Assembly: GCA_026417495.1 (NCBI GenBank)
Contig: JAOADD010000045.1
Coordinates: 1 to 34,157, forward strand
Origin: Ignavibacteria bacterium
GTDB lineage: Bacteria > Bacteroidota > Ignavibacteria > Tepidaquicellales > Tepidaquicellaceae
DNA length: 34,157 nucleotides
Direction of reading: 5' to 3'
Numbering within the stretch: the first letter of the stretch is position 1; the number at the start of each line of letters is the position of its first letter. This document shows positions 4,658 through 32,708 of the stretch, piece after piece. A model generated the notes under the pieces. The model worked only from the letters and a program-made list of their open reading frames with translations. It made no database searches and had not been told where the DNA came from. A program made the translations under genes and the position numbers.

Positions 4658-6958
4658 TCACCTTTTAGTATTAGTATTATTTCTTATCATTTTAATTCTA
4701 TTGAAGATAGAATAGAAAAATCCTAGTATCAGTAAAAATGAACCAACCCAAAGTATGCCAATAAATGGTTTGATAGAAACTGCAACAATAAGTTTCTCTT
4801 TTTGCAATTCAGTACCTTCAGAAGAATCAACAACTGCAATTTTTACAGTTGTTCCACTTTGTTTTTCAGTGACATTCAAACCTGTAAAGTAAAATGTATA
4901 GTTTGTATCTATTTCAGTTCTAGTTGGTTCTGGTTCTTGTATGCCTTTCTTATAATTTAATTTTAATTTTACAGTATCTTTCTTATTATCCTTTTGAACT
5001 TGAATAATTGAAAATACAGAATATTCTTTATCCCCAAGACTTCCAGAATGCATAGGAATTTGAGAAACATCAATGTCTAAAAATTTTATTTTTAACTTAT
5101 CAAAACTTTTTTCGTCTCCTTTTTTAAAAATATGAACCTGTTCTTCTTTAAATTGTTGTGGAGCTATTAATTCCAAAGGTGAAAGATATAAGTCTTTAGT
5201 AAGAAAACTGGCAATATAAGGTTCTTTCATTACACTATTCATATAAGAACTTAAATACATAACTGGTTTCATAATCATTTCTTCGCCATCTTTCTCTGCT
5301 CGAATAAAAAGATAATATTTTAAATCCTTCTGATTATATTTATCAATAAATTCCTCATCCCCAAAATAAGTGAATTTATATCCAAAAGCTTCAGCAGGGA
5401 CATTCTTTTCTAATTCAAGGTTGACCTCTTCTGAATAGCGAGCAGAAGCAACTACTCCAATCAGAAAAAGTGTAATCCCTAAATGTCCAATTGCGAAACC
5501 AAATGAAAAATTTTTTATTTTAATCCTTTCAATTATAGCAATTAAATTGACAAAAAAAGTAAATAAACAAATAAAAATGAAAAATAAAAAATAAAAATTA
5601 CTAATAGCAAAAATTCCTATTGGTATAATTGAAATTATACTAAATAAAAGAGATAATCTCGACTTTTTAAAAATATTTTCAGCAGGTTTTTCCCAGTTTA
5701 AGAAAAATGCAAGACCAGCAAGTAATGTGAAAGCTACTGCAAGAATCATATTAGTTGGATTATAATAACTATTCGGTTCGACTTTTGAAGAGGCTATTAT
5801 TGGAAGACTTGTTCCAGCAATAATTAGAATAGCTGATATAATTAAAATAATTGAACCAATATATATAGTTGTTTCTCGAGAAGTGATTAATATTTCTCTT
5901 TTATAAGATGGAATGGTATCAATATACTTTTTTATGGTTTTCAATTTTAACAAGAAAATAAAAATAGAAAAAAACAAAAAAATCAGGATAAAAAGAATCA
6001 ATGTAATATAAACTTCATTCCCTGGTTTTACAAAAGAGTGAACAGAAGCATCAGATAAAATACCACTTCTTGTTAAAAAAGTTGAATAAAGCACAAAAAG
6101 AAAAGCAAAAATGTTTAGCAGTATATTCGTAATAACGTATTTTTTAGTTACTTGCTGAGCGATCATAGTGTGCACAGCAGCCACACCAAAAATCCAAGGG
6201 ATGAGAGATGAATTCTCTACTGGATCCCATGACCAGTATCCCCCCCATCCAAGTACTCCATATGCCCAAAACGCTCCTAAAACAATACCTGCCCCAAGTA
6301 TTCCAGTCGCAAATAAAAGCCAAGGTAATGCAAGAGAAATCCACTTCTGGAATTTATCTAATAACAATGCAGAAATAGAAAAAGCAAACGGTATCGTAAA
6401 AGCCGCAAAACCAATAAATAATATTGGTGGATGAATTACCATCCAGAAATTTTGTAGAATTGGATTTAAACCCCTACCATCTTCAGGAATAAAACCAGTT
6501 CTCGCTTCTTTAGGGAAAGTCTCCCATATATACTCAAAAGGACTTTTTAAAATCAATAATAAACTCAAAAACATTATCACAAACATATAAACCATCATAA
6601 CAGAACTTTCATAATCATTATATTTCTTCAAAAAACTCAATAGAAAAATTCCAATTATAGAAGAGAACAGTAACCATAATAAAAAACTTCCTTCCTGACC
6701 AGCGTAGAATGAAGAAATTAATAATGGTAGACTTAAATCTTTACTACTATATTCCCAAACATAAGTATATTGAAACTGATGATTTAGAATTAAACTTAAT
6801 AAATAAGAAGATGCAAGTAAAACAGAAATTACTGATAAATGAAAAGTTGTTCTTGGAATAGCAGGAGATTTTATTTTATTTTTAAATCCTAGATAATAAA
6901 GTAGTATTGTAAGTATTGATGATATAAAAGTAACATATAATAAAATTTTTCCAAACAT
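4658..6958 (-). CDS. ccmF: Cytochrome c haem lyase subunit CcmF
   Basis: A large polytopic inner-membrane protein (766 aa) of System I cytochrome c maturation. It takes haem from holo-CcmE and attaches it to CxxCH cysteines in the periplasm. Diagnostic features are the WWD motif (about 231-247, with GWGGYWSWDPVENSSLIPW just around it), the flanking histidines H176 (MVIHPP) and H263 (AAVHTM), and TRSGILSDASVHSF in the next periplasmic loop. About a dozen hydrophobic segments come first, then a periplasmic domain of roughly 200 residues (510-725), and a final TM. The C-terminal domain is larger than in Escherichia coli CcmF (about 650 aa). It starts 3 bases after the ccmE stop. No ccmG or ccmH is present here. 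Confidence 0.95.
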   Translation of the reverse strand: MFGKILLYVTFISSILTILLYYLGFKNKIKSPAIPRTTFHLSVISVLLASSYLLSLILNHQFQYTYVWEYSSKDLSLPLLISSFYAGQEGSFLLWLLFSSIIGIFLLSFLKKYNDYESSVMMVYMFVIMFLSLLLILKSPFEYIWETFPKEARTGFIPEDGRGLNPILQNFWMVIHPPILFIGFAAFTIPFAFSISALLLDKFQKWISLALPWLLFATGILGAGIVLGAFWAYGVLGWGGYWSWDPVENSSLIPWIFGVAAVHTMIAQQVTKKYVITNILLNIFAFLFVLYSTFLTRSGILSDASVHSFVKPGNEVYITLILFILIFLFFSIFIFLLKLKTIKKYIDTIPSYKREILITSRETTIYIGSIILIISAILIIAGTSLPIIASSKVEPNSYYNPTNMILAVAFTLLAGLAFFLNWEKPAENIFKKSRLSLLFSIISIIPIGIFAISNFYFLFFIFICLFTFFVNLIAIIERIKIKNFSFGFAIGHLGITLFLIGVVASARYSEEVNLELEKNVPAEAFGYKFTYFGDEEFIDKYNQKDLKYYLFIRAEKDGEEMIMKPVMYLSSYMNSVMKEPYIASFLTKDLYLSPLELIAPQQFKEEQVHIFKKGDEKSFDKLKIKFLDIDVSQIPMHSGSLGDKEYSVFSIIQVQKDNKKDTVKLKLNYKKGIQEPEPTRTEIDTNYTFYFTGLNVTEKQSGTTVKIAVVDSSEGTELQKEKLIVAVSIKPFIGILWVGSFLLILGFFYSIFNRIKMIRNNTNTKR

Positions 6959-6961
6959 AAA

Positions 6962-7333
6962 TTATTTGTTTGTTGATTCATATTTAGATGGACATTTAGT
7001 AAGAATTTGCGAAGCATAAAATGTGCTATCTCTAACTTTACCTTCAACAACGATTAATTCCGCATGCTCAAGGTTATTTGGTTTTGGTTTATCATAAACA
7101 ACCCTCATTATCGTACCATTATCGTCTTTCATATAAAATTCAAACTTCAAGTCAGTTTTATAATTCATTTCTTTAAGCCATTTTCCGCGCACCTCAAATT
7201 CTTTCCCCTGATTTTTCAAAGCGGTAGCAAAATCAACATAATCAATCTTGCTAGACAAAAATGTAATAAAACCATAAACAGAAAAAATTATAATTATAAC
7301 AATCCCTATAATTATTTTTAATTTACCTTTCAT
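6962..7333 (-). CDS. ccmE: Haem chaperone CcmE, CxxxY variant
   Basis: A 123-residue periplasmic haem chaperone anchored by one N-terminal TM (residues 7-27), followed by the OB-fold barrel: FEVRGKWLKE, FEFYMKDDNG, and AELIVVEGKVRDSTFYASQI. In most bacteria haem is bound covalently to the His of an HxxxY motif. Here the equivalent position is Cys114 in CPSKY (114-118), that is CxxxY. Such cysteine-type CcmE proteins are known from Desulfovibrio and some archaea, where CcmH is generally absent. The gene abuts ccmD (ATG directly after its TAA) and is followed 3 bases later by ccmF. Confidence 0.93.
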   Translation of the reverse strand: MKGKLKIIIGIVIIIIFSVYGFITFLSSKIDYVDFATALKNQGKEFEVRGKWLKEMNYKTDLKFEFYMKDDNGTIMRVVYDKPKPNNLEHAELIVVEGKVRDSTFYASQILTKCPSKYESTNK

Positions 7334-7483
7334 TTATTCTTTATTATTAAACTTTTTTTCTAAATTTTTTATTCTCTTATGCAACCTATATATGTATAAA
7401 AATATTCCTAGCCAAACTATTATTGCAATTATAAGTACTGAATAAAGTGAATTACAGTCAAGAAAATTTTTAAAAAAGCACAT
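7334..7483 (-). CDS. ccmD: CcmD-like small membrane protein (49 aa)
   Basis: Found by reading the gap between ccmC and ccmE. ATG at 7483-7481 overlaps the ccmC stop (TGATG), and TAA at 7336-7334 directly precedes the ccmE ATG. The protein has a short N-terminus (MCFFKNFLDCNSLYS), one TM segment (about 16-32, VLIIAIIVWLGIFLYIY) and a basic amphipathic tail (RLHKRIKNLEKKFNNKE). That is the CcmD layout: a small subunit that holds CcmC and CcmE together and aids holo-CcmE release. Size, topology, position and coupling all agree; sequence conservation in CcmD is always poor, so the name rests mainly on context. The two N-terminal cysteines (C2, C10) are unexplained. Confidence 0.88.
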   Translation of the reverse strand: MCFFKNFLDCNSLYSVLIIAIIVWLGIFLYIYRLHKRIKNLEKKFNNKE

Positions 7484-8142
7484 CATTTTTCAAATTTATT
7501 TTTATAATATAACTTTTCTATTCTAACTCTTAAATTGTAAACCCAGAAAAAAAGTAAGGTGAAACTAATTAGTGAAATTATAAAAACAATCAAAATATTG
7601 AAGTCAATATTTAATTGCCCCCTTGTATTTATTATCGGGTCAGGGTGTAATGATTCTACCAACCTTGGTATCACAAAAACAAAAAATGGTACAGTGATGA
7701 ATGCTATAATAGAATAAGAAGCTGCAAGTTTTGCTTTTGTTTCTGGATTATCAATAGCAGAACGCAATGCAAAATAGGCACCATAAATAATAAATAGAAA
7801 AAATATTGAAGTCTCTCTTGGGTCCCAATTCCAAAAGCTGCCCCAACTAAATTTTGCCCAAATAGAACCTGTAATAGTAGCAAGAATGGAGAACAAAAAT
7901 CCAAGCTCAGCAGCGGATAATGCTTTTATATCATAAATATAATTTTGTTTCTTCAAATATAATATTGAATTTATCATAGACATCAAAAAAGCAATTACAA
8001 CCAACCATGCAGTAGGTACATGGTAAAAAATTATTCGCGCCTTTTGACCAAGAAGAGGAATTTCTGGAATGGGCATTGTAAATGATAATACAATAGTAAC
8101 CAAAAATAAAATAAAAATTATATATAGAATATATCTGTTCAT
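7483..8142 (-). CDS. ccmC: Haem-handling protein CcmC
   Basis: A six-TM inner-membrane protein (219 aa) that loads haem onto CcmE. It shows a periplasmic WWD motif (WAKFSWGSFWNWDPRE, 95-110) and two flanking histidines that ligate haem: H41 in FYHVPTAW and H166 in VESLHPDP. It is the first intact gene of a ccmC-ccmD-ccmE-ccmF run whose gaps are a TGATG overlap, 0 and 3 bases. The ABC subunits CcmA and CcmB are not in the window. A degraded lipoprotein/TPR-like reading frame ends 3 bases upstream (TAA-gta-ATG). Confidence 0.95.
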   Translation of the reverse strand: MNRYILYIIFILFLVTIVLSFTMPIPEIPLLGQKARIIFYHVPTAWLVVIAFLMSMINSILYLKKQNYIYDIKALSAAELGFLFSILATITGSIWAKFSWGSFWNWDPRETSIFFLFIIYGAYFALRSAIDNPETKAKLAASYSIIAFITVPFFVFVIPRLVESLHPDPIINTRGQLNIDFNILIVFIISLISFTLLFFWVYNLRVRIEKLYYKNKFEK

Positions 8143-8619: not shown

Positions 8620-9459
8620 TTAGTTCCAATTAATAATACCATTTAAATGCAAATTCTTATTTATAATTATTCCTTGTGAATTTATTACCGAGCCATGACA
8701 GAAATAGCAGTTATTTATTGTATACCCCTGTGGATGAGTACCAGCTGGAAGTGGATTATTGGTTTGAGGATTGCCATGACAAGAACCACAATTAACAGAA
8801 CTCGGAGATGACCATATAGGATTAATAGGAGGTGACAACAATCTATAATTACCGTTCACAAAATTACCGTGACAATATGAACCATCACAATTAAGATTAT
8901 TCCTGTTCCAAACAGGGTTAGGTTTTATCCCACCTGTAGTAATTACTGCAGTAGAATCGAAAATGACCTCTGCAATTCCATCAGGATGCGTCCCAATATG
9001 TATACTGTCTTCAAAAGAAGCAGGGGTTCGATGACAAGTAATACACCCTGTTGATTTAGAATAATTTGGATTTATATGCGTATCATGAGTACCTACACCA
9101 CGAGACAGCACACTAGTATCTCCATTCAGTGCTTTTGGTGGATAAATAGTATTGATACCATTACCATGACACAATCTGCAATCCTCTGGACTTGCTAAAT
9201 GACATTTATAACAACTGACTCCTGAAATTCCTCCATTATAATCTTTTCCATGACAAGTAATACATGCTGAAAGATTCCATAACTTCTTACTATAAATATA
9301 AGAGCCATGAAAATCAGCAGAAGACTTAATAGACCAACCATCAGGATGTTGACCATTTTGTGGAGCAATTGGTAAATCATCATAAATATCACTACAGCTT
9401 AATAAAAAACCAAAAAGAGCAATTAATATAAATACAAATAGATATTTCAGCTTATACAT
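8620..9459 (-). CDS. Heptahaem c-type cytochrome lipoprotein (CxxxxCH...CxxCH type)
   Basis: The best start is ATG 9459, 13 bases after the upstream stop. It gives 279 residues opening with MYKLKYLFVFILIALFGFLL and a lipobox cysteine at C22 (LLSC). An upstream start at 9528 overlaps the preceding gene and would bury the signal peptide. Seven haem sites are visible: CITCH, CYKCH, CRLCH, CITCH, CDGSYCH, CGSCH and CYFCH. The fifth is CX4CH; with the CGSCH after it, it resembles the Geobacter CxxxxCH...CxxCH cytochrome domain. HPDG/HPQG repeats before the clusters may offer distal haem ligands. A lipid anchor suits an outer-membrane, possibly cell-surface, electron carrier. It is the last cytochrome of the four-gene conduit cluster. 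Confidence 0.9.
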   Translation of the reverse strand: MYKLKYLFVFILIALFGFLLSCSDIYDDLPIAPQNGQHPDGWSIKSSADFHGSYIYSKKLWNLSACITCHGKDYNGGISGVSCYKCHLASPEDCRLCHGNGINTIYPPKALNGDTSVLSRGVGTHDTHINPNYSKSTGCITCHRTPASFEDSIHIGTHPDGIAEVIFDSTAVITTGGIKPNPVWNRNNLNCDGSYCHGNFVNGNYRLLSPPINPIWSSPSSVNCGSCHGNPQTNNPLPAGTHPQGYTINNCYFCHGSVINSQGIIINKNLHLNGIINWN

Positions 9460-9472
9460 TTGATAAAAATTT

Positions 9473-10702
9473 TTATTTATGACAATACCCACAAAAACCA
9501 ATTCCTTTTCTACCATTAGGTTTTGCATTTAAATCAGTGTGGCACGAAAAACAAATAGCACCATTGGTCTCGTGCCAAATACCCTTTTCATCATTTAGAA
9601 AATTCTTTTCATGGGTCTTAGGATTAGTCCCTTTAAAACCGTCATTGTCAAAATGACAACGAATACACACAGGATCCACCCCAGAAGCATCATGGCAACT
9701 TTGACAAAATTCGATATCTCTTCGTGCTAATTCAGAATGCAAACCACCACCAGTATTAACTCCAAAAGTTGTAAAGTTAGGTGACAAATGACTTCTTGGA
9801 AGAATACCTGTTAAAATATTCCCATTGTTAGAATGGCAAGCACTACAAAATTCAGTTGGATTATGGCAGGTCTTACATTCAAAACTCTTTTGCTTGGCGT
9901 CTATACCGTGTGTGTATAGATAGTTTAAATTATGGATTGTGTTTAACTTTTGTAGCTCTGCTCGGTCAATTCTATTTCCTGAATTTTTCGTGTAATAAGG
10001 TGCATAAAAATTATTTTTCTTATTTTCACCTCTATAATTCCCTGCTGAATGGCATACCATACAAAAATTATCACTATGACACATCATACAATTGTTCTTT
10101 TCATCACTATTTTCAAAAACCCATTTATGCTCATTCAGAAAATTTGATGAAAGATGATTAACTGGTTTCAAATTTATTAAATTTGTATGACATACTTCAC
10201 ACTCTCCAGAAGATTTTTTTATAACTTCACTTTCTTGATTGTGACACCCATAACATAATTCCATAGGTGGATATTTATTAGGATTATCATCTGAATATTT
10301 ATAATCTTTCATATTTTTATGACAATCATCACAAGTTTTTCCTAAGGTCAAATGTACCTTGTGAGAAAAATTTAATTCTTTTGAAGTTGGAATTAATTTC
10401 TTATAAACATTATCATAATGACAAAAATTACATTCTTTTTTATCTTTCACATCATGGCAGTTCGCACATGCAGGTTTGCTTGGAGTTAAAGCATCCTCGG
10501 ATTTATTAGATTCTGGAACTTTTTTATGACAAGAAACGCATTTAATATCTAAACTCTTTATATGAACACTATGATTAAATTTAATTAAATCTTTATTACC
10601 ATAGTTTACATATTTTTCGAAATTCTCTATTGCATAAGAAGAAAAAAGAATATAAGAAACCAAGCCTAAAGTAAGAAGAGTATAATATTTAAGAATTTTC
10701 AT
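9473..10702 (-). CDS. Tetradecahaem c-type cytochrome
   Basis: The 409-residue secreted protein has a Sec signal peptide (MKILKYYTLLTLGLVSYILF, cleaved near A24). Fourteen CxxCH motifs can be counted in order: CVSCH, CANCH, CNFCH, CDDCH, CYGCH, CEVCH, CMMCH, CMVCH, CKTCH, CSACH, CQSCH, CIRCH, CFSCH, CGYCH. FNHSVH and FSHKVH before the first and fourth clusters are the His-pair pattern of c3/c7-type cytochromes. One haem per 29 residues implies a nearly continuous haem wire. There is no lipobox, so it is periplasmic or sits inside the barrel encoded 11 bases upstream. The electron donor and acceptor are unknown; neither a nitrite reductase nor a hydroxylamine oxidoreductase signature is evident. 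Confidence 0.93.
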   Translation of the reverse strand: MKILKYYTLLTLGLVSYILFSSYAIENFEKYVNYGNKDLIKFNHSVHIKSLDIKCVSCHKKVPESNKSEDALTPSKPACANCHDVKDKKECNFCHYDNVYKKLIPTSKELNFSHKVHLTLGKTCDDCHKNMKDYKYSDDNPNKYPPMELCYGCHNQESEVIKKSSGECEVCHTNLINLKPVNHLSSNFLNEHKWVFENSDEKNNCMMCHSDNFCMVCHSAGNYRGENKKNNFYAPYYTKNSGNRIDRAELQKLNTIHNLNYLYTHGIDAKQKSFECKTCHNPTEFCSACHSNNGNILTGILPRSHLSPNFTTFGVNTGGGLHSELARRDIEFCQSCHDASGVDPVCIRCHFDNDGFKGTNPKTHEKNFLNDEKGIWHETNGAICFSCHTDLNAKPNGRKGIGFCGYCHK

Positions 10703-10713
10703 CTTTTTATAAA

Positions 10714-12036
10714 TTACATTCTTATAAATAACCAGTAATTACATCCTAATAATATTCTTGTATCAAATTTATAAATTCTGTTCTTTATAAACTGTCCCTG
10801 TAAATCGAAATTTAACCTGTTTATAGGTCGATATACAATACCAACTATTCCAGCAAATGCATTCTCTTTAGAGTCAATATAATTATCCAATCTGTATCTC
10901 GAAAAGTTAACACCTGTAGTTATAGACAATATTTTTGAGATTATATCATAATTGAAATACCCATATATACCATCAGATTCACCTGCATAACCAGAGTATT
11001 TTACAAACGAAATACCATAAGCAGGATGACTTAAACCGCAAGATATTTTAAGGGAATTATCATCTTCATAAAATACATTTGCCAATCTAGCATAAAAGTT
11101 ATAATTTTCATTCCAAATGTAATCTAATCCAATTTCCAATTCCTGAATCTGTCTCTGATTAAATACCCAAAAAATTGAATTATAACTTATTAATGGTTTC
11201 CTATATAAATATCCAGTAGAAATTTTTAAATATTCAATAAAATTATAACTTGCATTTAATTCAATTTTATAAAAATTTTTCTTACTTAAATCAAAATATA
11301 ACTTTCCTGCGAAAGAGTAATTTCGCTTTGAGTAATCTAAATCAAAACCTGCTAAATTGTTTTCAAAAGCATCTATATCAATTAAAACTTGTTTAGGGTT
11401 AAAAATACTATCAGGTCTTACTGTATAAAATGGTTTTGGTTTACTTCGTTTAAGAAAATAACTGAGAGAAAGAGAAAGTGGTTCTATTCCAAAATAAGAA
11501 AATTGAGTACCTAAAGAAAAATTTTCAGATATCTTTCCATAATCATTGAAATTATATGAAACAGGAGTATTTGCTCCTATGTATCCTTTTATTTGTAAAT
11601 GTTTTTCATTACCAAGCTTAACTTTAAACAGCATTCCATCAATAGTTCCTCTTCCGACACCTGCAGAGAAATATTGTCTCCCAAGTTTTATATCAATTAA
11701 ATTAAAAATATCATTACCCTTGAAATAAGCCGAATAAAAACGGAAATCGAACCCTTTACCCGTTTTGCCTATAACATCTTCTTCTGTTTGGAGAGAAGTA
11801 TTAAAAGACCATTTTTTATGAGATATATCAATTAAAACGGTTTGGTATCCTTTTACAAATTTTTCGGAAGATTTTTCGCTTGTGCTTTTTATTGAATCAT
11901 ACCTTTCAAAAGAATAAAAATAGGTGTTGATTCTAAAATTGAAGTTTTGTGAATAAGTAAAATCAATTACAATTAAAAAAGAGAAAATAATTAGAAGAAG
12001 AAAAAAATTTTTATAGGTAGGAATTTTCTTAATCAA
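10714..12036 (-). CDS. Outer-membrane beta-barrel, candidate porin of a porin-cytochrome complex
   Basis: The 440-residue protein has a signal peptide (hydrophobic 11-27, cleaved near YSQ 28-30). The rest has alternating amphipathic strands with many aromatic residues and ends NYWLFIRM, an aromatic strand suited to BAM insertion. The length would allow about 16-20 strands. No family name can be given from sequence alone; MtrB/PioB-type conduits are larger, but porin-cytochrome clusters of varied size are known in Ignavibacteria. It starts at TTG (12036-12034) overlapping the upstream cytochrome stop (TTGA), which implies translational coupling, and lies between cytochrome genes. Its job as haem-wire sheath is inferred from that position. 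Confidence 0.8.
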   Translation of the reverse strand: MIKKIPTYKNFFLLLIIFSFLIVIDFTYSQNFNFRINTYFYSFERYDSIKSTSEKSSEKFVKGYQTVLIDISHKKWSFNTSLQTEEDVIGKTGKGFDFRFYSAYFKGNDIFNLIDIKLGRQYFSAGVGRGTIDGMLFKVKLGNEKHLQIKGYIGANTPVSYNFNDYGKISENFSLGTQFSYFGIEPLSLSLSYFLKRSKPKPFYTVRPDSIFNPKQVLIDIDAFENNLAGFDLDYSKRNYSFAGKLYFDLSKKNFYKIELNASYNFIEYLKISTGYLYRKPLISYNSIFWVFNQRQIQELEIGLDYIWNENYNFYARLANVFYEDDNSLKISCGLSHPAYGISFVKYSGYAGESDGIYGYFNYDIISKILSITTGVNFSRYRLDNYIDSKENAFAGIVGIVYRPINRLNFDLQGQFIKNRIYKFDTRILLGCNYWLFIRM

Positions 12037-12605
12037 GGTTTATAATGTTTGATTTTATTCCATGAAGTTTCAAATTCAAATGGTTTATAGGTTGGGCTGG
12101 ATTCATTGTGACAAATAATACATAAACTTTCTATATTATCATATACAATCATACCATGTTCTATACATTTATTTTTATCCTTCATAATAGACATTTTCAT
12201 ATATTCCGAACCAGGACCATGACAACTTTCACACTGAACCCCTTCTTCTTTTTCAAAAGTTGAAGTCAATTCATCTGGCTTGATTTCTCTACCAAGTAAA
12301 TGGCATTTTACACATTCAATAATTTCAGTTGGATTTTCTTTATATCCCTTTTCTATTGCAATTTTCTTTGATTGTTCGGTTTCCAAAGTTTTCCATGCTT
12401 TTGAGTGTTGAGAGTTTTTCCATATATCCAATTGCTTACCCTGACTTTCTGTTTTATGGCAAGCACTGACGCATTTAGTAACCCCAACATACTTCGGCTC
12501 TTGAAACTGAAATTTGCTTCCATAAATAAACACAATTAAGATAGAAAGAAAAATAATTAAAAACAATTTTTTATAGGAATTTTTCATTTTTACTTTAATA
12601 TTCAT
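12033..12605 (-). CDS. Tetrahaem cytochrome, c554-like
   Basis: The 190-residue periplasmic cytochrome has an N-terminal signal or anchor segment (13-28). Haem sites are CVSACH (45-50), CVKCH, CESCH and CIICH. The spacing and the EGVQCESCHGPGSEY block, preceded by CVKCHLLGREI, match the cytochrome c554/multihaem family, whose members shuttle electrons in the periplasm. The first site is CX3CH rather than CxxCH, which is uncommon. It heads the four-gene porin-cytochrome cluster and overlaps the barrel gene by 4 bases. An internal ATG at 12587 (M7) is an equally possible start. It probably feeds electrons from inner-membrane donors to the conduit. Confidence 0.88.
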   Translation of the reverse strand: MNIKVKMKNSYKKLFLIIFLSILIVFIYGSKFQFQEPKYVGVTKCVSACHKTESQGKQLDIWKNSQHSKAWKTLETEQSKKIAIEKGYKENPTEIIECVKCHLLGREIKPDELTSTFEKEEGVQCESCHGPGSEYMKMSIMKDKNKCIEHGMIVYDNIESLCIICHNESSPTYKPFEFETSWNKIKHYKP

Positions 12606-25606: not shown

Positions 25607-25635
25607 AAGGTGATTTATAAATTATAAATCACCTT
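25607..25635 (-). terminator. Perfect palindromic terminator between convergent genes
   Basis: AAGGTGATTTATAA (25607-25620) and TTATAAATCACCTT (25622-25635) are a perfect 14-base inverted repeat around one base; a 12-pair stem with a 5-base loop is realistic. On the minus strand the stem is followed by TTTTTT, so it should end transcription of the LysM gene cluster. On the plus strand the hairpin lies just after the methyltransferase stop but has no T run. Confidence 0.75.
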
Positions 25636-25658: not shown

Positions 25659-26453
25659 TTATTTTTTATTTTTCTTCTTAGGTTCTTGTTTCGGTTTTCT
25701 TTCTTTCTTCTTTATCTGCTTTTTGTCAGAAATTATTTTTTTCTCTATATCTGTTAATTCAGGAATTCTTAAAATCTGCCCGGGATAAATCAAATCTGGC
25801 TTTACTATTTTATGAGGAACCCCTTTCGGAGCTGAAATTACTCCCTCTTTATTAGCCTCCCAAATTTTAACCCAGAATCGTGCATTACCATAAATTTCTT
25901 TCTTTTGTGCTATCTTCCAAAGACAATCGCCTTTAACAACAGTATATTGAGTATATTTTTCTTCCTTGACAACTATTTTCTTTGAATCTTCTTCCCATTT
26001 AAGTAACTCAGCGTACATTTTATTGTATCGTTCTTGATACTTTGGCAAACATTTCGCTTTTGAAAGTGAAATTTCATCAAAAAAGTTTTTTCTTGCCAAT
26101 TCTGGAGTGCCGATACGATTTTTAATTGTACTTTCGGTCTCAGAAAATTTACTATCAAATTCAGTTAGATTTAAAGAGTTTATTAAATTATCATATTCTT
26201 GCTGCAATTCAGATATTTTTTTGTCCTTATCAACTGCTTCACTCTCAAGGTCTTGAATTTCTTTAGTTAAGTTTTTGACTTCACTTTCTAACAATTTTTT
26301 CTTTTCTTTAGAATCATTTAAATCCTTGTAAAATTTATTATATTGTTCTTCCTTTTCTGCTTCGTCACAGCACTCCTCATATTCTTGAGAAAATAAAAAT
26401 CCTGTCCCTAAGAACAGGATAATTATTATCCCACCAAAAAACAATTTTTTCAT
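25659..26453 (-). CDS. Secreted coiled-coil protein with LysM domain
   Basis: The 264-residue protein has a signal peptide (core 7-20, cleaved near FSQ 21-23), a charged coiled coil (36-96, with [19 protein letters not shown]), a helical middle, one LysM (about 170-231, [20 protein letters not shown] through [11 protein letters not shown]) and a Lys/Pro tail ([16 protein letters not shown]). LysM binds the glycan chains of peptidoglycan, so the protein is probably periplasmic and wall-bound. It is the last gene of the cluster with the GldM-like and MotA/TolQ-like genes; a wall anchor is what such a motor would otherwise lack. Two N-terminal cysteines (C28, C29) do not form a lipobox. AAGGGGC lies just before ATG. 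Confidence 0.85.
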
Positions 26454-26493
26454 AGCCCCTTATTAATATTTGAAAATAATAAATTTAAAAATT

Positions 26494-27735
26494 TTATTTC
26501 TCCTCAAAGTAATCACCAATTTTAAATCTACCATTAATCATTACACACACAACACCAAACCTTCCACTTGGAGTTTTTGTCATTCTAATAGAAGGACCAA
26601 AAGCAAATGAGGTAAGCGAGAATCCTTCTCCAATATCTGAAATTAAAGTTTCAATTAACAATTGGAAATTTCTTCTCCCGGCAAGAGTCGCATTAATTCT
26701 TAAATCAAATACAGAACCTGCAAATCTCATTTCTCTTGCTGAAAATCCGATGTGAGTTTCACCTAAATATCTAGCTACATAAATTTTTGCACGTGTTGAA
26801 CCCAAAGCTCTAAATGGATATCTAAATTCCCAATTAAAGAAACTTTCATCTACAATTACACTATTAGGCATAAAAGTAGTATCACCTTCAACTCGTACTT
26901 TTAATGGCGGATCATAATCACCAGAATCAAGTACTGTGTAATACCCAACTTGGAAGAAGTTACCAAAAGGAATTACATAGGAAATTTCTAGACCAAGTTT
27001 TGGTGTAAACAAGTTATTATACTTTCCAAATTTACTTTCTTTTTCACCAGCTGTTGCTCCCGCCTGATGTTTAAGTACTAATTCTTTAATCCTAGTACTG
27101 ACACCAACAGAAGCACCGAGTAAGTGGAAATTCGCACCTACTTTATCGGTTTCAAGTGGTCCAGAATATGGTGTCCCACTATAGAAAGAAAATCCGAAAC
27201 CTCTTTTAATAGGAATGCCAAGAGGATCACCACCAAAAACTTGTAAGTAAGGATTGTGATATGCTGTAGTATTTATAATATCACGTACTTTTTTAGGTGG
27301 TGCTATTAACTCTTTAATCTTGATTTTTTTAATCACCCTTAAAAATACAGAACCATAATCTAATTTCGATTCTCTAAGATTTACCTTATTGGCTCCCGTC
27401 CAATTAATCAATTTATCCTGGGTTTCCTTAGATAATTGTGACCATGCAAATCTCATTGCGTCTGCAGAAGTTTCATCACCAATAACTACAGTTTGCACTT
27501 GTGGGTCAATAATATTAACAGTAATAGCATAACTTTCAAGTTTAGGATCAATAAATAATTCATCCTGAAGCTTCACAAAAACGCTATCATCTTGAGCACG
27601 AGCGTTAATTCTAAAATATTTCCATGTTCTTGGATCATTTTCTAGCTCTTCTTGTGCAAAAACATTTTCTACTTGTAAAAGCAATAAAGAACAAAAAACA
27701 ATTAAAAGGCTAAAAAATATTCTCTTTTTATTCAT
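26494..27735 (-). CDS. Outer-membrane protein with periplasmic N-terminal domain (unrecognised family)
   Basis: The 413-residue protein has a signal peptide (MNKKRIFFSLLIVFCSLLLL, cleaved after FAQ near residue 28). A soluble mixed domain spans roughly 30-150 and includes DPQVQTVVIGDETSADAMRF. From about 170 onward the sequence is alternating beta-strand with GLEISYVIPFGNFFQVGYYT and FNWEFRYPFRALGSTRAKIY, consistent with an 8-12 stranded barrel ending GRFKIGDYF. I do not recognise a named family; it is not GldN or GldK by any motif I can see. Position between the GldM-like and LysM genes suggests it is the outer-membrane partner of the same apparatus. Confidence 0.75.
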   Translation of the reverse strand: MNKKRIFFSLLIVFCSLLLLQVENVFAQEELENDPRTWKYFRINARAQDDSVFVKLQDELFIDPKLESYAITVNIIDPQVQTVVIGDETSADAMRFAWSQLSKETQDKLINWTGANKVNLRESKLDYGSVFLRVIKKIKIKELIAPPKKVRDIINTTAYHNPYLQVFGGDPLGIPIKRGFGFSFYSGTPYSGPLETDKVGANFHLLGASVGVSTRIKELVLKHQAGATAGEKESKFGKYNNLFTPKLGLEISYVIPFGNFFQVGYYTVLDSGDYDPPLKVRVEGDTTFMPNSVIVDESFFNWEFRYPFRALGSTRAKIYVARYLGETHIGFSAREMRFAGSVFDLRINATLAGRRNFQLLIETLISDIGEGFSLTSFAFGPSIRMTKTPSGRFGVVCVMINGRFKIGDYFEEK

Positions 27736-27813
27736 TTTATATAAATTAATTATTCATTTAATTTACAAATAAAATTAATAACAAAAAATTAATAAATCCA
27801 TTACAATAAATTG

Positions 27814-28734
27814 TTACCACTCAGTAAATGTAAATATACCTTGCCTACTAATTTTATTACCAGCTGCATCAACAACTGTAATAGTGAATGCTACGTTGTA
27901 GGGTTCCTCTTTACCTTCTGTAAATGCTTCAAATGCAGACTTTGAAGTAAGAAAATTCAGAGTTATATCATAAGTACCAGGACCAGATTGAGTTACCCTT
28001 ACAGGCCCTGAAACAGTTACTTTCAATTGTTCAGGTGCTACATCTTTAATTTGAACACGATATCCAACTTGAGATTGTATATTTCGCACTGAGATACCTT
28101 CGCCCATTTGTGCTAATCGGGTCATAGTAATTTCTGGAGGTGGTTTCTTTTGAATTGGTTTAGTATCTGAAGATTCACCAACTCTATAAGTGATACTTTT
28201 TTCACCTCCAAGTGTAAAAGTTGCAGAACCACCAGGAGGAATACTTGCTAACGTCCTTCCATCAGCAGAAATTACTAATGTACCATTGTATGGATTTTTT
28301 ACAGTATAAGTTAAATACTGAGTAAATGTTCCCGAAATCTGAACATCCGCTTGAATTTTCTTCTCTTCTAAAGGTTTCTCTTCCTCGGGTTTTTTCTCTT
28401 CTATTTTCAATTCTGGCTGCTTCTGTTCTAATCTAAGCTGTGGTTGAGTCTGAACTACTGATAACTGAGTTTTCATTTGCTGTAATTGAACCTGTAACTT
28501 TTGAAAATCTTCAAAATTTACAGCACTATCAAAATCAAGTTTGGGTACAAGCCCCAAAGCAAGAAGAGAATCAATAAATGCTTTTAATGAATCTGCATAT
28601 TGTTTCTTAACTATATCTTGTTTAGAAATAACTTCAACCAAATCTATATTTGCACCTTTGAGTGCTATTACGCATACTACAAAGATGTAAAGGACTTGAT
28701 ATATTACGAATTTTACATCTCTTGCGCCTTTCAT
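27814..28734 (-). CDS. GldM-like single-TM periplasmic protein
   Basis: The 306-residue protein has one N-terminal TM (about 9-27), a short coiled coil (75-95), a Pro/Glu/Lys linker (99-127) and two beta-rich periplasmic domains (about 130-187 and 200-305). The N-terminus, ARDVKFVIYQVLYIF..., resembles the GldM/PorM opening, where an Arg is followed by a Tyr-x-Val-Leu within the TM and then a short acidic helix. GldM is the periplasm-spanning rotor of the T9SS/gliding motor. At 306 residues this is much shorter than GldM (about 510), which has four periplasmic domains. No OmpA-like wall-binding motif as in MotB is visible. The gene follows the four-TM MotA/TolQ-like gene by 113 bases, matching GldL-GldM order. 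Confidence 0.7.
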   Translation of the reverse strand: MKGARDVKFVIYQVLYIFVVCVIALKGANIDLVEVISKQDIVKKQYADSLKAFIDSLLALGLVPKLDFDSAVNFEDFQKLQVQLQQMKTQLSVVQTQPQLRLEQKQPELKIEEKKPEEEKPLEEKKIQADVQISGTFTQYLTYTVKNPYNGTLVISADGRTLASIPPGGSATFTLGGEKSITYRVGESSDTKPIQKKPPPEITMTRLAQMGEGISVRNIQSQVGYRVQIKDVAPEQLKVTVSGPVRVTQSGPGTYDITLNFLTSKSAFEAFTEGKEEPYNVAFTITVVDAAGNKISRQGIFTFTEW

Positions 28735-28847
28735 TGTTGTTGTAGTTTAAAATTTTAAAATATTTTCAATTTTATCATAACTTATATAAAACATATGTTA
28801 ATCAATAATTTATTTACATCGCACACTTTACTTTATTAATCTACAAA

Positions 28848-30092
28848 TCATTGTAAATTGTTCCCAGAACGTTTTCCAGCTATATATGCAAGATTTTCAA
28901 GACTCTTTGTGGCATTGGCTTCATTCATAATTTTCAAAGTCTCTGAAATAAAATGGGCTGTCATTTGTAATTCTTTTAATGGCTTTTCATCAGGCAAATC
29001 AATCTTTAATTTGTTAATTTGCTCTCCTAATTTTTGAATTGCTTCAAGTTGTTGTCTTAGTATTGTAGAATATTCTGCGGATTTATGAACTATTCCTGCA
29101 ATGTTCGTCAAAGTAGCTGAAATTTGATTAAATTGATTTATAATAGCAGAATCAAATAGCTTAACATTTTTAATTTCATCAACTGTATTTTTAAATGATT
29201 CCATATTTGCAGCAAACTCTTTTGTAATATCATTCGTTACCTTAATTAATTTATAAATATATTCAATCTCTTCTTTTGAGAAATGTTTTACTCCAGCTCC
29301 AGAAGTTGTCATTATTTCTGCTAATGCTTGTTTGTTTGCTTCACTGAGTTTAGTGATTAAATTGTTCTGTTCCTTCTCCCTTGTTTGATAATAGAACTCG
29401 GTTTCAATATTTTTAACCTCTTCAACAATTTTTTGATATCTTAAACTTTGTGCTTCAAATACAGCACCAAACAATTTAGCAATAGCAAGAATAATAATTG
29501 ATTTTATTTCAAATGGAACGGAAAATCCAAGAAATAACTGAGGCCCAATCTTAATTGATACTAATAATATAGCAGCACCAAGTAATGGTAGTGCTGTACC
29601 AATAGAGTCTACAAGACCATTATATTTTTCATTAACTCTTGCAATAATACCTTCAGAAGCACCTTTACTAATTATCTCGGTTTTCAAAGTCTGATTAGCT
29701 CTCAACGCAAATAAGATAAATATTAAATAAAATGCAAAAGGCATCCACCATAACTGTACTGGTTCAATTTGGGTATTTAATAAATTAGATTCCGGAAATA
29801 GCCACTGAGAAAAGCTATTAGCCACATGCCCAAAAAGTGGTACATAAGCAACATCAACTAAAAACGATAAAAGCACAACAATAAGTGATGGAAACGCTGA
29901 TTTAAAATAAGCGAATGCTCCTTCTTTCTCTAGTTGGTTTATTCCCTTTCTAATAACATAATCTTGTATTTGTATTAATTGAGAATCATCTCTTTTAAGA
30001 GATTGAACTTTTTGCTCTAACTCTGCAACTTCTAACGCTTCCATATTATTAATAATCTCAGTATCTTTTCCGTATGTGTTTTTTTCTTCCAT
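28848..30092 (-). CDS. MotA/TolQ/ExbB-like four-TM protein with long cytoplasmic tail
   Basis: The 414-residue inner-membrane protein: cytoplasmic helical N-terminus (1-65), TM1 (66-90, containing Asp80), TM2 (112-131), a 30-residue loop, TM3 (160-185), TM4 (196-214), then a 200-residue cytoplasmic helical tail rich in Glu, Lys and Gln. TM3 reads SIGTALPLLGAAILL; the IGxxxPxxG pattern is the same as in ExbB/TolQ (IGSTAPFVG), where this helix lines the proton path. Together with the single-TM partner downstream this has the outline of a 5:2 ion-driven motor unit such as MotAB, ExbBD, ZorAB or GldLM. A direct assignment to GldL is not possible: GldL has two TMs. It heads the four-gene cluster. 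Confidence 0.7.
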   Translation of the reverse strand: MEEKNTYGKDTEIINNMEALEVAELEQKVQSLKRDDSQLIQIQDYVIRKGINQLEKEGAFAYFKSAFPSLIVVLLSFLVDVAYVPLFGHVANSFSQWLFPESNLLNTQIEPVQLWWMPFAFYLIFILFALRANQTLKTEIISKGASEGIIARVNEKYNGLVDSIGTALPLLGAAILLVSIKIGPQLFLGFSVPFEIKSIIILAIAKLFGAVFEAQSLRYQKIVEEVKNIETEFYYQTREKEQNNLITKLSEANKQALAEIMTTSGAGVKHFSKEEIEYIYKLIKVTNDITKEFAANMESFKNTVDEIKNVKLFDSAIINQFNQISATLTNIAGIVHKSAEYSTILRQQLEAIQKLGEQINKLKIDLPDEKPLKELQMTAHFISETLKIMNEANATKSLENLAYIAGKRSGNNLQ

Positions 30093-30482: not shown

Positions 30483-30569
30483 GCCCGAGTGGCGGAACTG
30501 GCAGACGCGCAGGACTTAAAATCCTGTTGACCTAAAAGGTCAGTATCGGTTCGATTCCGATCTCGGGCA
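30483..30569 (+). tRNA. tRNA-Leu(UAA)
   Basis: The acceptor stem GCCCGAG (30483-30489) pairs with CTCGGGC (30562-30568), with discriminator A30569. The anticodon stem CAGGA/TCCTG encloses loop CTTAAAA, anticodon TAA at 30517-30519. A long class II variable arm (TGACC/GGTCA around TAAAA) is typical of Leu. The T arm is TCGGTTCGATTCCGA. CCA is not encoded (ACT follows). Confidence 0.97.
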
Positions 30570-30576
30570 CTAAAAG

Positions 30577-30662: not shown

Positions 30663-32708
30663 ATGTATATCTTAAAAAAAATAATAGATATGAATAAACA
30701 TTACTACTTCTTTATTATTTCTTTAATCTTAATAAATTCAAGTTACCCACAATGGTTTAAAGGAAATGGTCTTTATTATGGTAATAGCTTTAGAACTCTA
30801 GCATCAAATCAACCTTATGTTTATGTAGGCACTTTTTCAAATGGGGTCTTTCGATCAACTAACAACGGTTCTCAGTGGGAACAGAGTGGTTTAGGTTCTA
30901 ATTATGTTTATTCATTAGCAACGGATAATAATTTTGTATTTGCTGGTACTTATGGAAGCGGTATTTATGTATCAACTAACTATGGAACATCCTGGATTCA
31001 AACTTTACCAAGCAGGTATGTTAGAATTATCATTATTGGAACCAACTCTATATTTGCAGGGACAGATTCATATGGTGTTTATCAAAGCACGAACAACGGA
31101 CAAAACTGGACACAAACATCCCTTAATAATAAAAATGTATGGTCTCTTGCAGTTTATGGTCAAACAATATTTGCAGGAACAACTGATTCAGGTGTGTACC
31201 GTTCTACAAATGGAGGAATAAATTGGACTCAAACTCCATTGAACAGTTATACAGTTATTTCTCTGGCGGTAAATGCTTCAACAGTTTTTGCTGGAACTTA
31301 TTCAGGACTATTTCGCTCTGACAATAATGGTGATACCTGGCAACCAGTTGCACAATTTACTTCAGAATATGTATTTGCAATTGCAATCAGTGGAAATAAT
31401 ATTTTTCTCGGAACATGGAGTCAGGGAATTTATCGTTCTACTAACAATGGAATAAATTGGACACAAACAGATTTCACATCAGGATGGATAAGAGCAATAT
31501 CATTACAACCAACAAAATATTTTGCAGCATCTGATAATGGGATTGTAATTTCAACTAATGCAGGTGTAAACTGGGGTATCTCAAACTTTTGCAATACTGA
31601 TTTTAGATGTATTTCAGGAGTCGGAAATAATATTTTTGCAGGCACAGGTTATAATGGTGGGATATTTTATTCTTCCGATGGAGGATACAATTGGAGTCAA
31701 ACAAGCATGATAAATAAAACTTTTTACTCTTTGTATTCTACCTCAAGTTATACTCTTGCTGGTTCTTATAATTATGGAATATATTACACCACAAATAATG
31801 GATTAAATTGGTTTCAATCTAATCTTACTAATAGAACAATAGAATCAATTTGTTTGCACAATAATATCTTATTTGCTGGTTCATGGTATTATGGAGTTTA
31901 TAAATCAACGGACAACGGATTAACATGGATTCAAACACCGTTAAATAATTATACAATTTATTCTCTTTCTTCCAATGGAAATTATTTATTTGCAGGAACT
32001 GAAAATAATGGAGTTATTTATTCAACCAACAATGGAAATAATTGGCAACAAACTCCTTTAAACAATAAAACAATATACTCTCTCGCAACAAGTGGTAACT
32101 ATATATACGCAGGTACATTAGACTCTGGGATATACATATCAACAAATCTAGGATTAACTTGGACACATTCAACATTAAATAATAAGGTTATATTATCTAT
32201 ATTTGCAATATCTAATTTTGCTTGGGCAGGACTTGGTAATAATGAGGGTGTTTATTTCTCTACGAATTATGGTCAAAACTGGATTACAAAGAATGAAGGA
32301 TTTGATCAAACTCCTTATGTATTTGGATTTTATTTTAATTCATCAGGAAATTACATCTTAGCATCAGCAAGTGCTACTTCGATTTGGAGAAGACCTCTTA
32401 CTGATTTTAATCCAACTTTAAAAGTTACATCACATCTGACACCATCAGAATTCGTATTATATCAGAATTATCCTAATCCTTTTAACTCAACTACTCAAAT
32501 AAGATTTTCCATTCCGAAAAAACAATATATTACACTTAAAGTATATGATATTATTGGAAGAGAAATAGAGACACTAATAAACCGTGAATTAGAATCAGGG
32601 TTGTATTCATTAGTGTGGGATGGAAAAAACTGTTCAAGTGGAATATACTTCTGTAAGTTAACTTCTGCAGAAGTAAGAAAAATTATTTTTATGGTAATGA
32701 TTAAATAA
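30663..32708 (+). CDS. Secreted Asp-box repeat (beta-propeller) protein with T9SS sorting domain
   Basis: The 681-residue exported protein has an N-terminal signal peptide; ATG 30690 (MNKHYYFFIISLILINSSYP) gives a cleaner one than ATG 30663. From about residue 45 to 570 it contains 13 repeats of about 41 residues with consensus FAGTxxxGVYxSTNNGxNWxQTxLNN; S-T-N-x-G-x-x-W is an Asp-box (BNR-like) hairpin, so the region should form one or two propellers. The C-terminus is a type A T9SS sorting domain: FVLYQNYPNPFNSTTQIRFS, VYDIIGREIETLIN, SGIYFCKL and a basic tail KIIFMVMIK. It is thus a surface or released protein; ligand unknown. The repeats are also visible in the DNA at about 125-base spacing. 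Convergent with mgtE, 8 bases apart. Confidence 0.92.
   Translation: MYILKKIIDMNKHYYFFIISLILINSSYPQWFKGNGLYYGNSFRTLASNQPYVYVGTFSNGVFRSTNNGSQWEQSGLGSNYVYSLATDNNFVFAGTYGSGIYVSTNYGTSWIQTLPSRYVRIIIIGTNSIFAGTDSYGVYQSTNNGQNWTQTSLNNKNVWSLAVYGQTIFAGTTDSGVYRSTNGGINWTQTPLNSYTVISLAVNASTVFAGTYSGLFRSDNNGDTWQPVAQFTSEYVFAIAISGNNIFLGTWSQGIYRSTNNGINWTQTDFTSGWIRAISLQPTKYFAASDNGIVISTNAGVNWGISNFCNTDFRCISGVGNNIFAGTGYNGGIFYSSDGGYNWSQTSMINKTFYSLYSTSSYTLAGSYNYGIYYTTNNGLNWFQSNLTNRTIESICLHNNILFAGSWYYGVYKSTDNGLTWIQTPLNNYTIYSLSSNGNYLFAGTENNGVIYSTNNGNNWQQTPLNNKTIYSLATSGNYIYAGTLDSGIYISTNLGLTWTHSTLNNKVILSIFAISNFAWAGLGNNEGVYFSTNYGQNWITKNEGFDQTPYVFGFYFNSSGNYILASASATSIWRRPLTDFNPTLKVTSHLTPSEFVLYQNYPNPFNSTTQIRFSIPKKQYITLKVYDIIGREIETLINRELESGLYSLVWDGKNCSSGIYFCKLTSAEVRKIIFMVMIK

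Follow-up and report, generated by a model that had tools for sequence, protein, structure and literature searches.

MotAB, ExbBD, TolQR and ZorAB share a two-gene layout in which a protein with several transmembrane (TM) helices is combined with a single-TM partner. The ion-carrying acid of MotAB and ExbBD sits in the single-TM partner, and MotB, ExbD and TolR have a TM Asp. In MotA and ExbB, a large cytoplasmic loop separates the outer helices from the core helices. To our knowledge, GldLM stands apart from MotAB and ExbBD, with no intermediate. In GldL-GldM and PorL-PorM, the gene of a membrane protein with a helical tail is followed by that of a periplasmic protein whose only TM helix is N-terminal, and there is a partner on the outer-membrane side. 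GldL has two TM helices, and GldM has four periplasmic domains. GldL does not function without the strictly conserved E49 of its second TM helix, whose protonation controls GldM (PMC8986121). An earlier survey, with GldKLMN-type components among its markers, detected the Type IX secretion system (T9SS) only in Bacteroidetes (PMC4793230).

The locus studied here lies in a stretch of 34,157 nucleotides (the window). This is contig C7 of a genome of 2.19 Mb from the class Ignavibacteria. The closest named record was CP054675 (Ignavibacteria bacterium Ch128a), and a search of genome contigs turned up a single very close relative. A preliminary description of the window had proposed four ORFs on one strand closed by a perfect terminator, and both were found as follows.

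Gene A: 28848..30092, - strand, 414 aa; from ORF, hydropathy and homologue alignment
Gene B: 27814..28734, - strand, 306 aa; from ORF, hydropathy and a low-confidence model
Gene C: 26494..27735, - strand, 413 aa; from ORF and exported-domain comparisons
Gene D: 25659..26453, - strand, 264 aa; from ORF and LysM domain (PF01476) above cut-off
Intrinsic-terminator-like hairpin: 25607..25635, - strand, 13-bp stem, 3-nt loop and T-run; ends the A-D cluster

All four are real genes under purifying selection (dN/dS 0.04-0.08). The dN/dS values against a near relative (L019) were 0.048 for A, 0.081 for B, 0.043 for C and 0.062 for D; the values are approximate, as dS was near saturation in this comparison. 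Upstream of A, the gene at 30663-32708 encodes a T9SS cargo protein with a sorting domain, and a tRNA-Leu (TAA) gene at 30483-30570 lies between the two. Elsewhere in the window, a cluster for exported multi-CxxCH (cytochrome-like) proteins (8620-12605) adjoins cytochrome-maturation-like genes (4658-8142).

No Pfam or NCBIfam model matched A, B or C above cut-off, and HMM searches of the three families against PDB sequences gave coiled-coil or chance matches alone. Hydropathy analysis of A detected exactly four hydrophobic segments (70-88, 112-130, 164-182 and 194-212). They are followed, C-terminal to TM4, by a helical tail of about 200 hydrophilic residues (about 215-414), in agreement with the four TM helices and the tail of this length first described. 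Both termini were predicted to be cytoplasmic, and the cytoplasmic loop between TM2 and TM3 has only about 33 residues. A single-chain AlphaFold2 model of A was unusable (pLDDT 42); the alignments behind the models of A and B held two sequences, those of the window and L019.

Eight residues were invariant in 43 of 43 A sequences: P169, G172, A173, P193, E195, K197, L202 and F208. Because these lie in TM3 and TM4, we regard the two helices as the functional core of A. The TM4 motif P193-F-E195-I-K197 was invariant, and Glu195 was the only acidic TM residue conserved in all sequences. The preliminary description had pointed to an Asp in TM1. This residue (Asp80) is indeed present in 37 of the 43 sequences but is not invariant, and the forms of A that lack it retain E195. 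The invariant acid is therefore in the fourth helix. Since E195 was placed at the start or edge of the predicted TM4 helix, beside K197, we infer its ion-carrying role rather than observe it, and the residue may be structural.

For B, hydropathy showed one TM helix (7-25, N-terminus inside), followed by a short helical stretch and a linker. The proposed single TM helix thus stood, and the proposed two beta domains stood only approximately: in a low-confidence model, residues ~140-306 fold into about two beta-sandwich domains in the periplasm (pLDDT about 65 in this region; 51 for a single-chain AlphaFold2 model of the whole protein). The TM helix is conserved as K-F-x-I-Y-Q-x-L-Y-I, and the N-terminus across the family is approximately (R/K)D(V/S/A)KF(I/V)IYQxLYIF. 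No acidic residue occurred in the TM helix of the B N-termini listed. With the model of B as query, Foldseek found nothing at E<=0.001 and VIA-align 2 gave generic cadherin/Ig folds with Z under 8. No GldM or PorM structure was among these fold matches, a result that excludes nothing.

We compared A with the MotA/TolQ/ExbB family (PF01618), to which it had originally been likened. A had no match to PF01618 in a Pfam scan, in a search of its own genome or among 17 A members. The genome has its PF01618 matches on other contigs: on C18 a TolQ/ExbB-type gene with two ExbD-type genes after it, and on C53 a ZorA-like gene. When A profiles were aligned with ExbB-type proteins by hhalign, P ranged from 0.07 to 0.45 over subsets, a background level, and was 0.27 with a 20-sequence A profile. 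The membership of A in this family was thus not borne out, and neither was the reading of its TM3 as an ExbB/TolQ-like IGxxxPxxG helix. A resembles MotA in having four TM helices and ZorA in having a long helical tail, and A-B likewise pairs a multi-TM protein with a single-TM partner; the short TM2-TM3 loop of A sets it apart, as does the absence of a PF01618 match. B differs from MotB, ExbD and TolR in lacking the TM Asp, and no ExbD/TolR or OmpA-type domain was recognisable in it.

The ZorA-like gene (L002; G000:C53) best matches the models of type II Zorya and is followed by the start of a MotB-like gene. An anti-phage defence role for A-B-C was considered and rejected: no PADLOC match was found for A or C, and B reached only E 0.017.

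The comparison with GldL was closer. With the 20-sequence A profile, hhalign placed TM3-4 of A on TM1-2 of GldL (probability 53%, P 1.4e-4), and none of 400 hydropathy-preserving column shuffles reached this score. Nine other subsets and the widest set gave P 0.0023 to 0.18, often with the coiled-coil tails aligned. Because the match failed on these ten other samplings, we do not claim homology between A and GldL. P was lower for GldL than for ExbB in every A subset tested, and against a background of 624 proteins GldL was among the better non-self matches of the A core, below NuoJ-like proteins. B and GldM gave P 0.0087 to 0.04 with their TM helices in register. When this alignment was extended by eye, Lys8 of B lay opposite Arg9 of GldM, and Tyr16 of B opposite Tyr17 of GldM. 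As far as sequence comparison goes, A-B is without demonstrable kinship to any known motor, and its common descent with GldLM is possible but unproven.

In design, A-B resembles GldL-GldM and PorL-PorM in several respects. The gene of a membrane protein with a helical tail precedes that of a periplasmic protein whose only TM helix is N-terminal; the membrane protein has a conserved Glu in its second core helix; the TM helix of the partner has no acidic residue; and a candidate outer-membrane-side partner is encoded nearby. Glu195 of A lies in the second core helix, as does the Glu of GldL, in an uncertain register to E49. Because Glu195 is invariant in A and the TM helix of B has no acid, the charge pattern of A-B, as read from the alignments, is of the GldLM sort and not of the MotAB/ExbBD sort. 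A differs from GldL in having four TM helices, and B, at 306 aa, has about two periplasmic domains and is too short for four of the size found in GldM. In addition, A and B match neither TIGR03513 (GldL) nor TIGR03517 (GldM), and their profile similarity to GldL and GldM is weak and not robust. The early doubt that B is a classic GldM was justified: B is about 200 residues shorter, and no protein of the GldL or GldM family turned up in the genome or in the class sample.

Neither GldL (TIGR03513) nor GldM (TIGR03517) was found over cut-off in any of 119 genomes of the class, or in the genome of the window, although the GldL search does recover the protein in Bacteroidota relatives. A canonical gldKLMN set elsewhere in the genome, which the preliminary description proposed to check for, was not detected as far as GldL and GldM are concerned. 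Matches below cut-off in L031, L091, L093, L096, L097 and L101 were rejected as coiled-coil or signal-peptide look-alikes. Control loci in Bacteroidota show the canonical order GldK-L-M. In the A-B loci examined, neither GldK nor GldN was recognised next to A-B, again as first described.

In the sample of 119 class genomes, single-sequence and profile searches found A in families f1 (that of the window) and f2, and a wider search of the phylum added f22. Across the class, a profile including f22 gave strong matches to A (E<1e-20) in 65 of the 391 genomes, with 27 in f1, 14 in f2, 17 in f22, 3 in f23 and 4 in f10. A and B were adjacent in all 36 loci read, from these five families, and C came next in 32 of them. 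In three others (L206, L207 and L210) C was not adjacent, and in L209 the contig ends just after B. The surroundings vary by family, with rsmB in f1, nuo genes in f2 and other genes in f22; therefore, the unit travels as A-B-C. Near A-B-C in three f22 genomes, we also observed three tandem, near-identical, small GIY-YIG-like ORFs (L133:1605-2589, L134:11526-12383 and L135:11504-12459).

The preliminary description had treated D as a core part of a four-gene unit, a LysM scaffold grouped with the other three genes. Its identification as a LysM coiled-coil protein was correct: D has a signal-like N-terminus, a coiled coil and a LysM domain (PF01476) at 26.6 bits, against a Pfam cut-off of 20.9. 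It was near A-B-C in 16 of 19 f1 loci, usually accompanied by a small coiled-coil lipoprotein and sometimes duplicated, and was absent beside A-B-C in the f2, f10, f22 and f23 loci examined. The conserved unit is thus three genes, A-B-C, not four, and D is an accessory found only in the family of the window. A very divergent A-B-C in G511 (L221:3921-9507) has the gene of a VWA/OmpA-like peptidoglycan-binding protein directly upstream of A on the same strand. D in f1 and this protein in G511 recall PorE-type OmpA-like anchors and LysM proteins as peptidoglycan-binding neighbours, except that such neighbours are not conserved across A-B-C families.

C has a signal-like N-terminus, an N-terminal domain (about 33-150) and a C-terminal end FKIGDYF, and had no Pfam, NCBIfam or PDB match. 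Of its earlier description as an outer-membrane protein with a signal peptide, the signal-like segment was found and the barrel is probable; C is probably an exported outer-membrane beta-barrel. Its N-terminal domain recurs in a 137-aa lipoprotein, in lipoproteins of 251-259 aa and in exported proteins of 399-430 aa, and a full second copy of C exists. Free-standing genes for this domain in f2 are at L187:5384-5797, L188:5012-5791, L189:5511-6803, L191:5630-6385 and L192:5085-6284.

B and C behave as modules, each splitting or duplicating on its own. A short form of A, of about 220-240 residues and without most of the tail, occurs in G070, G090, G097, G399 and a second copy in G384. In these loci, the TM part of B and an exported Ig-like part are encoded separately, and C is preceded by one more exported gene. 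The additional gene of G070 encodes a 119-aa lipoprotein that matches the N-terminal domain of C. Family f2 has second and third copies of B, one of which adjoins genes for a histidine kinase and a response regulator (loci with extra B: L010/L088, L011/L087, L025/L084 and L024/L085). The DNA of the main and second B copies is 91-99% identical in three f2 genomes, with patchy divergence that suggests gene conversion.

That A and B, with C, could form an envelope-spanning unit, as initially proposed, is plausible from the adjacency of A and B in 36 of 36 loci, the presence of C in 32 and the GldLM-like layout. A-B-C is an unannotated, conserved three-gene envelope unit of GldLM-like design and probably, though not demonstrably, an ion-driven motor. 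Our tentative main reading, to which we give a probability of about 0.45, is that A-B-C is a GldLM-like motor specific to this lineage, which acts on outer-membrane partners of the C type. A would form an ion-conducting ring in the inner membrane, with TM3-TM4 as core helices and TM1-TM2 as extra outer helices, and its helical cytoplasmic tail would serve as an anchor. Two B helices would lie inside this ring, with the periplasmic beta domains of B as the shaft. Ion flow past the invariant Glu195 would move B against C, and at the outer membrane the motion would pass to the N-terminal domain of C. In the family of the window, D may tie the assembly to peptidoglycan. C itself may serve secretion, the movement of surface proteins or the upkeep of the envelope. 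The ring, the ion flow, the rotation and the B-C contact are all parts of a proposed model.

Several observations favour this GldLM-like motor: the constant adjacency of A and B; the gene order of ring then shaft, as in gldL-gldM; the invariance in TM3 and TM4 of A; the strong conservation of an acid-free TM helix in B; the best profile match of A, to GldL and not to ExbB-type proteins; the alignment of the B and GldM TM helices; the modular behaviour of B and C, with the N-terminal domain of C also free-standing in lipoproteins encoded by the same genomes; and the OmpA-like gene upstream of A in G511. Against it are the instability of the A-GldL match across samplings, the lack of any GldKLMN family signature in A, B or C, the position of E195 at the edge of TM4, and the short variant of A without most of its tail. 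The recurrence of the N-terminal domain of C in other exported proteins is most simply read as follows: the periplasmic tip of B would dock there, and several partners may be served by one motor.

The same recurrence is part of a rather unlikely alternative, that A-B-C is a separate family of ion-driven trans-envelope motors, lying outside MotA/ExbB/TolQ/GldL by sequence and serving several outer-membrane or exported partners with a common docking domain, much as TonB serves many receptors. It is equally doubtful that A-B-C spans the envelope as a passive scaffold or tether, such as a structural bridge or a stress-sensing complex, with no ion-driven motion. The lack of a motor family signature fits a tether, and E195, at the membrane edge beside K197, could form a structural salt bridge; the histidine kinase and response regulator genes beside f2 paralogues of B, and the anchoring suggested by the LysM and OmpA partners, point the same way. 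However, the buried TM3 and TM4 of A and the TM helix of B are conserved beyond the needs of a tether, and the pairing of a multi-TM protein with a single-TM partner is a recurrent motor layout.

A role of A-B-C in T9SS is quite unlikely. Of 119 class genomes, 118 have the T9SS translocon SprA (117 over cut-off), that of the window among them (G000:C13:25279-29790), and none has GldL or GldM over cut-off; the A-B layout resembles gldLM, and the gene at 30663-32708 encodes a T9SS cargo. In contrast to the near-universal SprA, A is confined to 65 of 391 genomes in about five families, A, B and C are missing from most relatives with T9SS, and the loci examined showed no recognisable T9SS machinery gene as a direct neighbour of A-B-C. 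Because A is far rarer than SprA, A-B-C cannot be the motor that T9SS uses throughout the class. It could work for T9SS in the A-bearing families alone, or have another function. Finally, it is highly improbable that A is a true, ExbBD-like member of the MotA/TolQ/ExbB superfamily, since its MotA-like four-TM topology is set against PF01618 matches in its own genome that were limited to the TolQ/ExbB and ZorA-like genes, profile comparisons at background, a B without the TM Asp and a TM2-TM3 loop of some 33 residues.

With SprA near-universal and GldL and GldM undetectable by family models, how secretion is energised in Ignavibacteria becomes a testable question. A four-TM, GldLM-like pair outside Bacteroidia, if A-B is such a pair, would provide a comparison point for the origins of these motors and for their ion-carrying residues.
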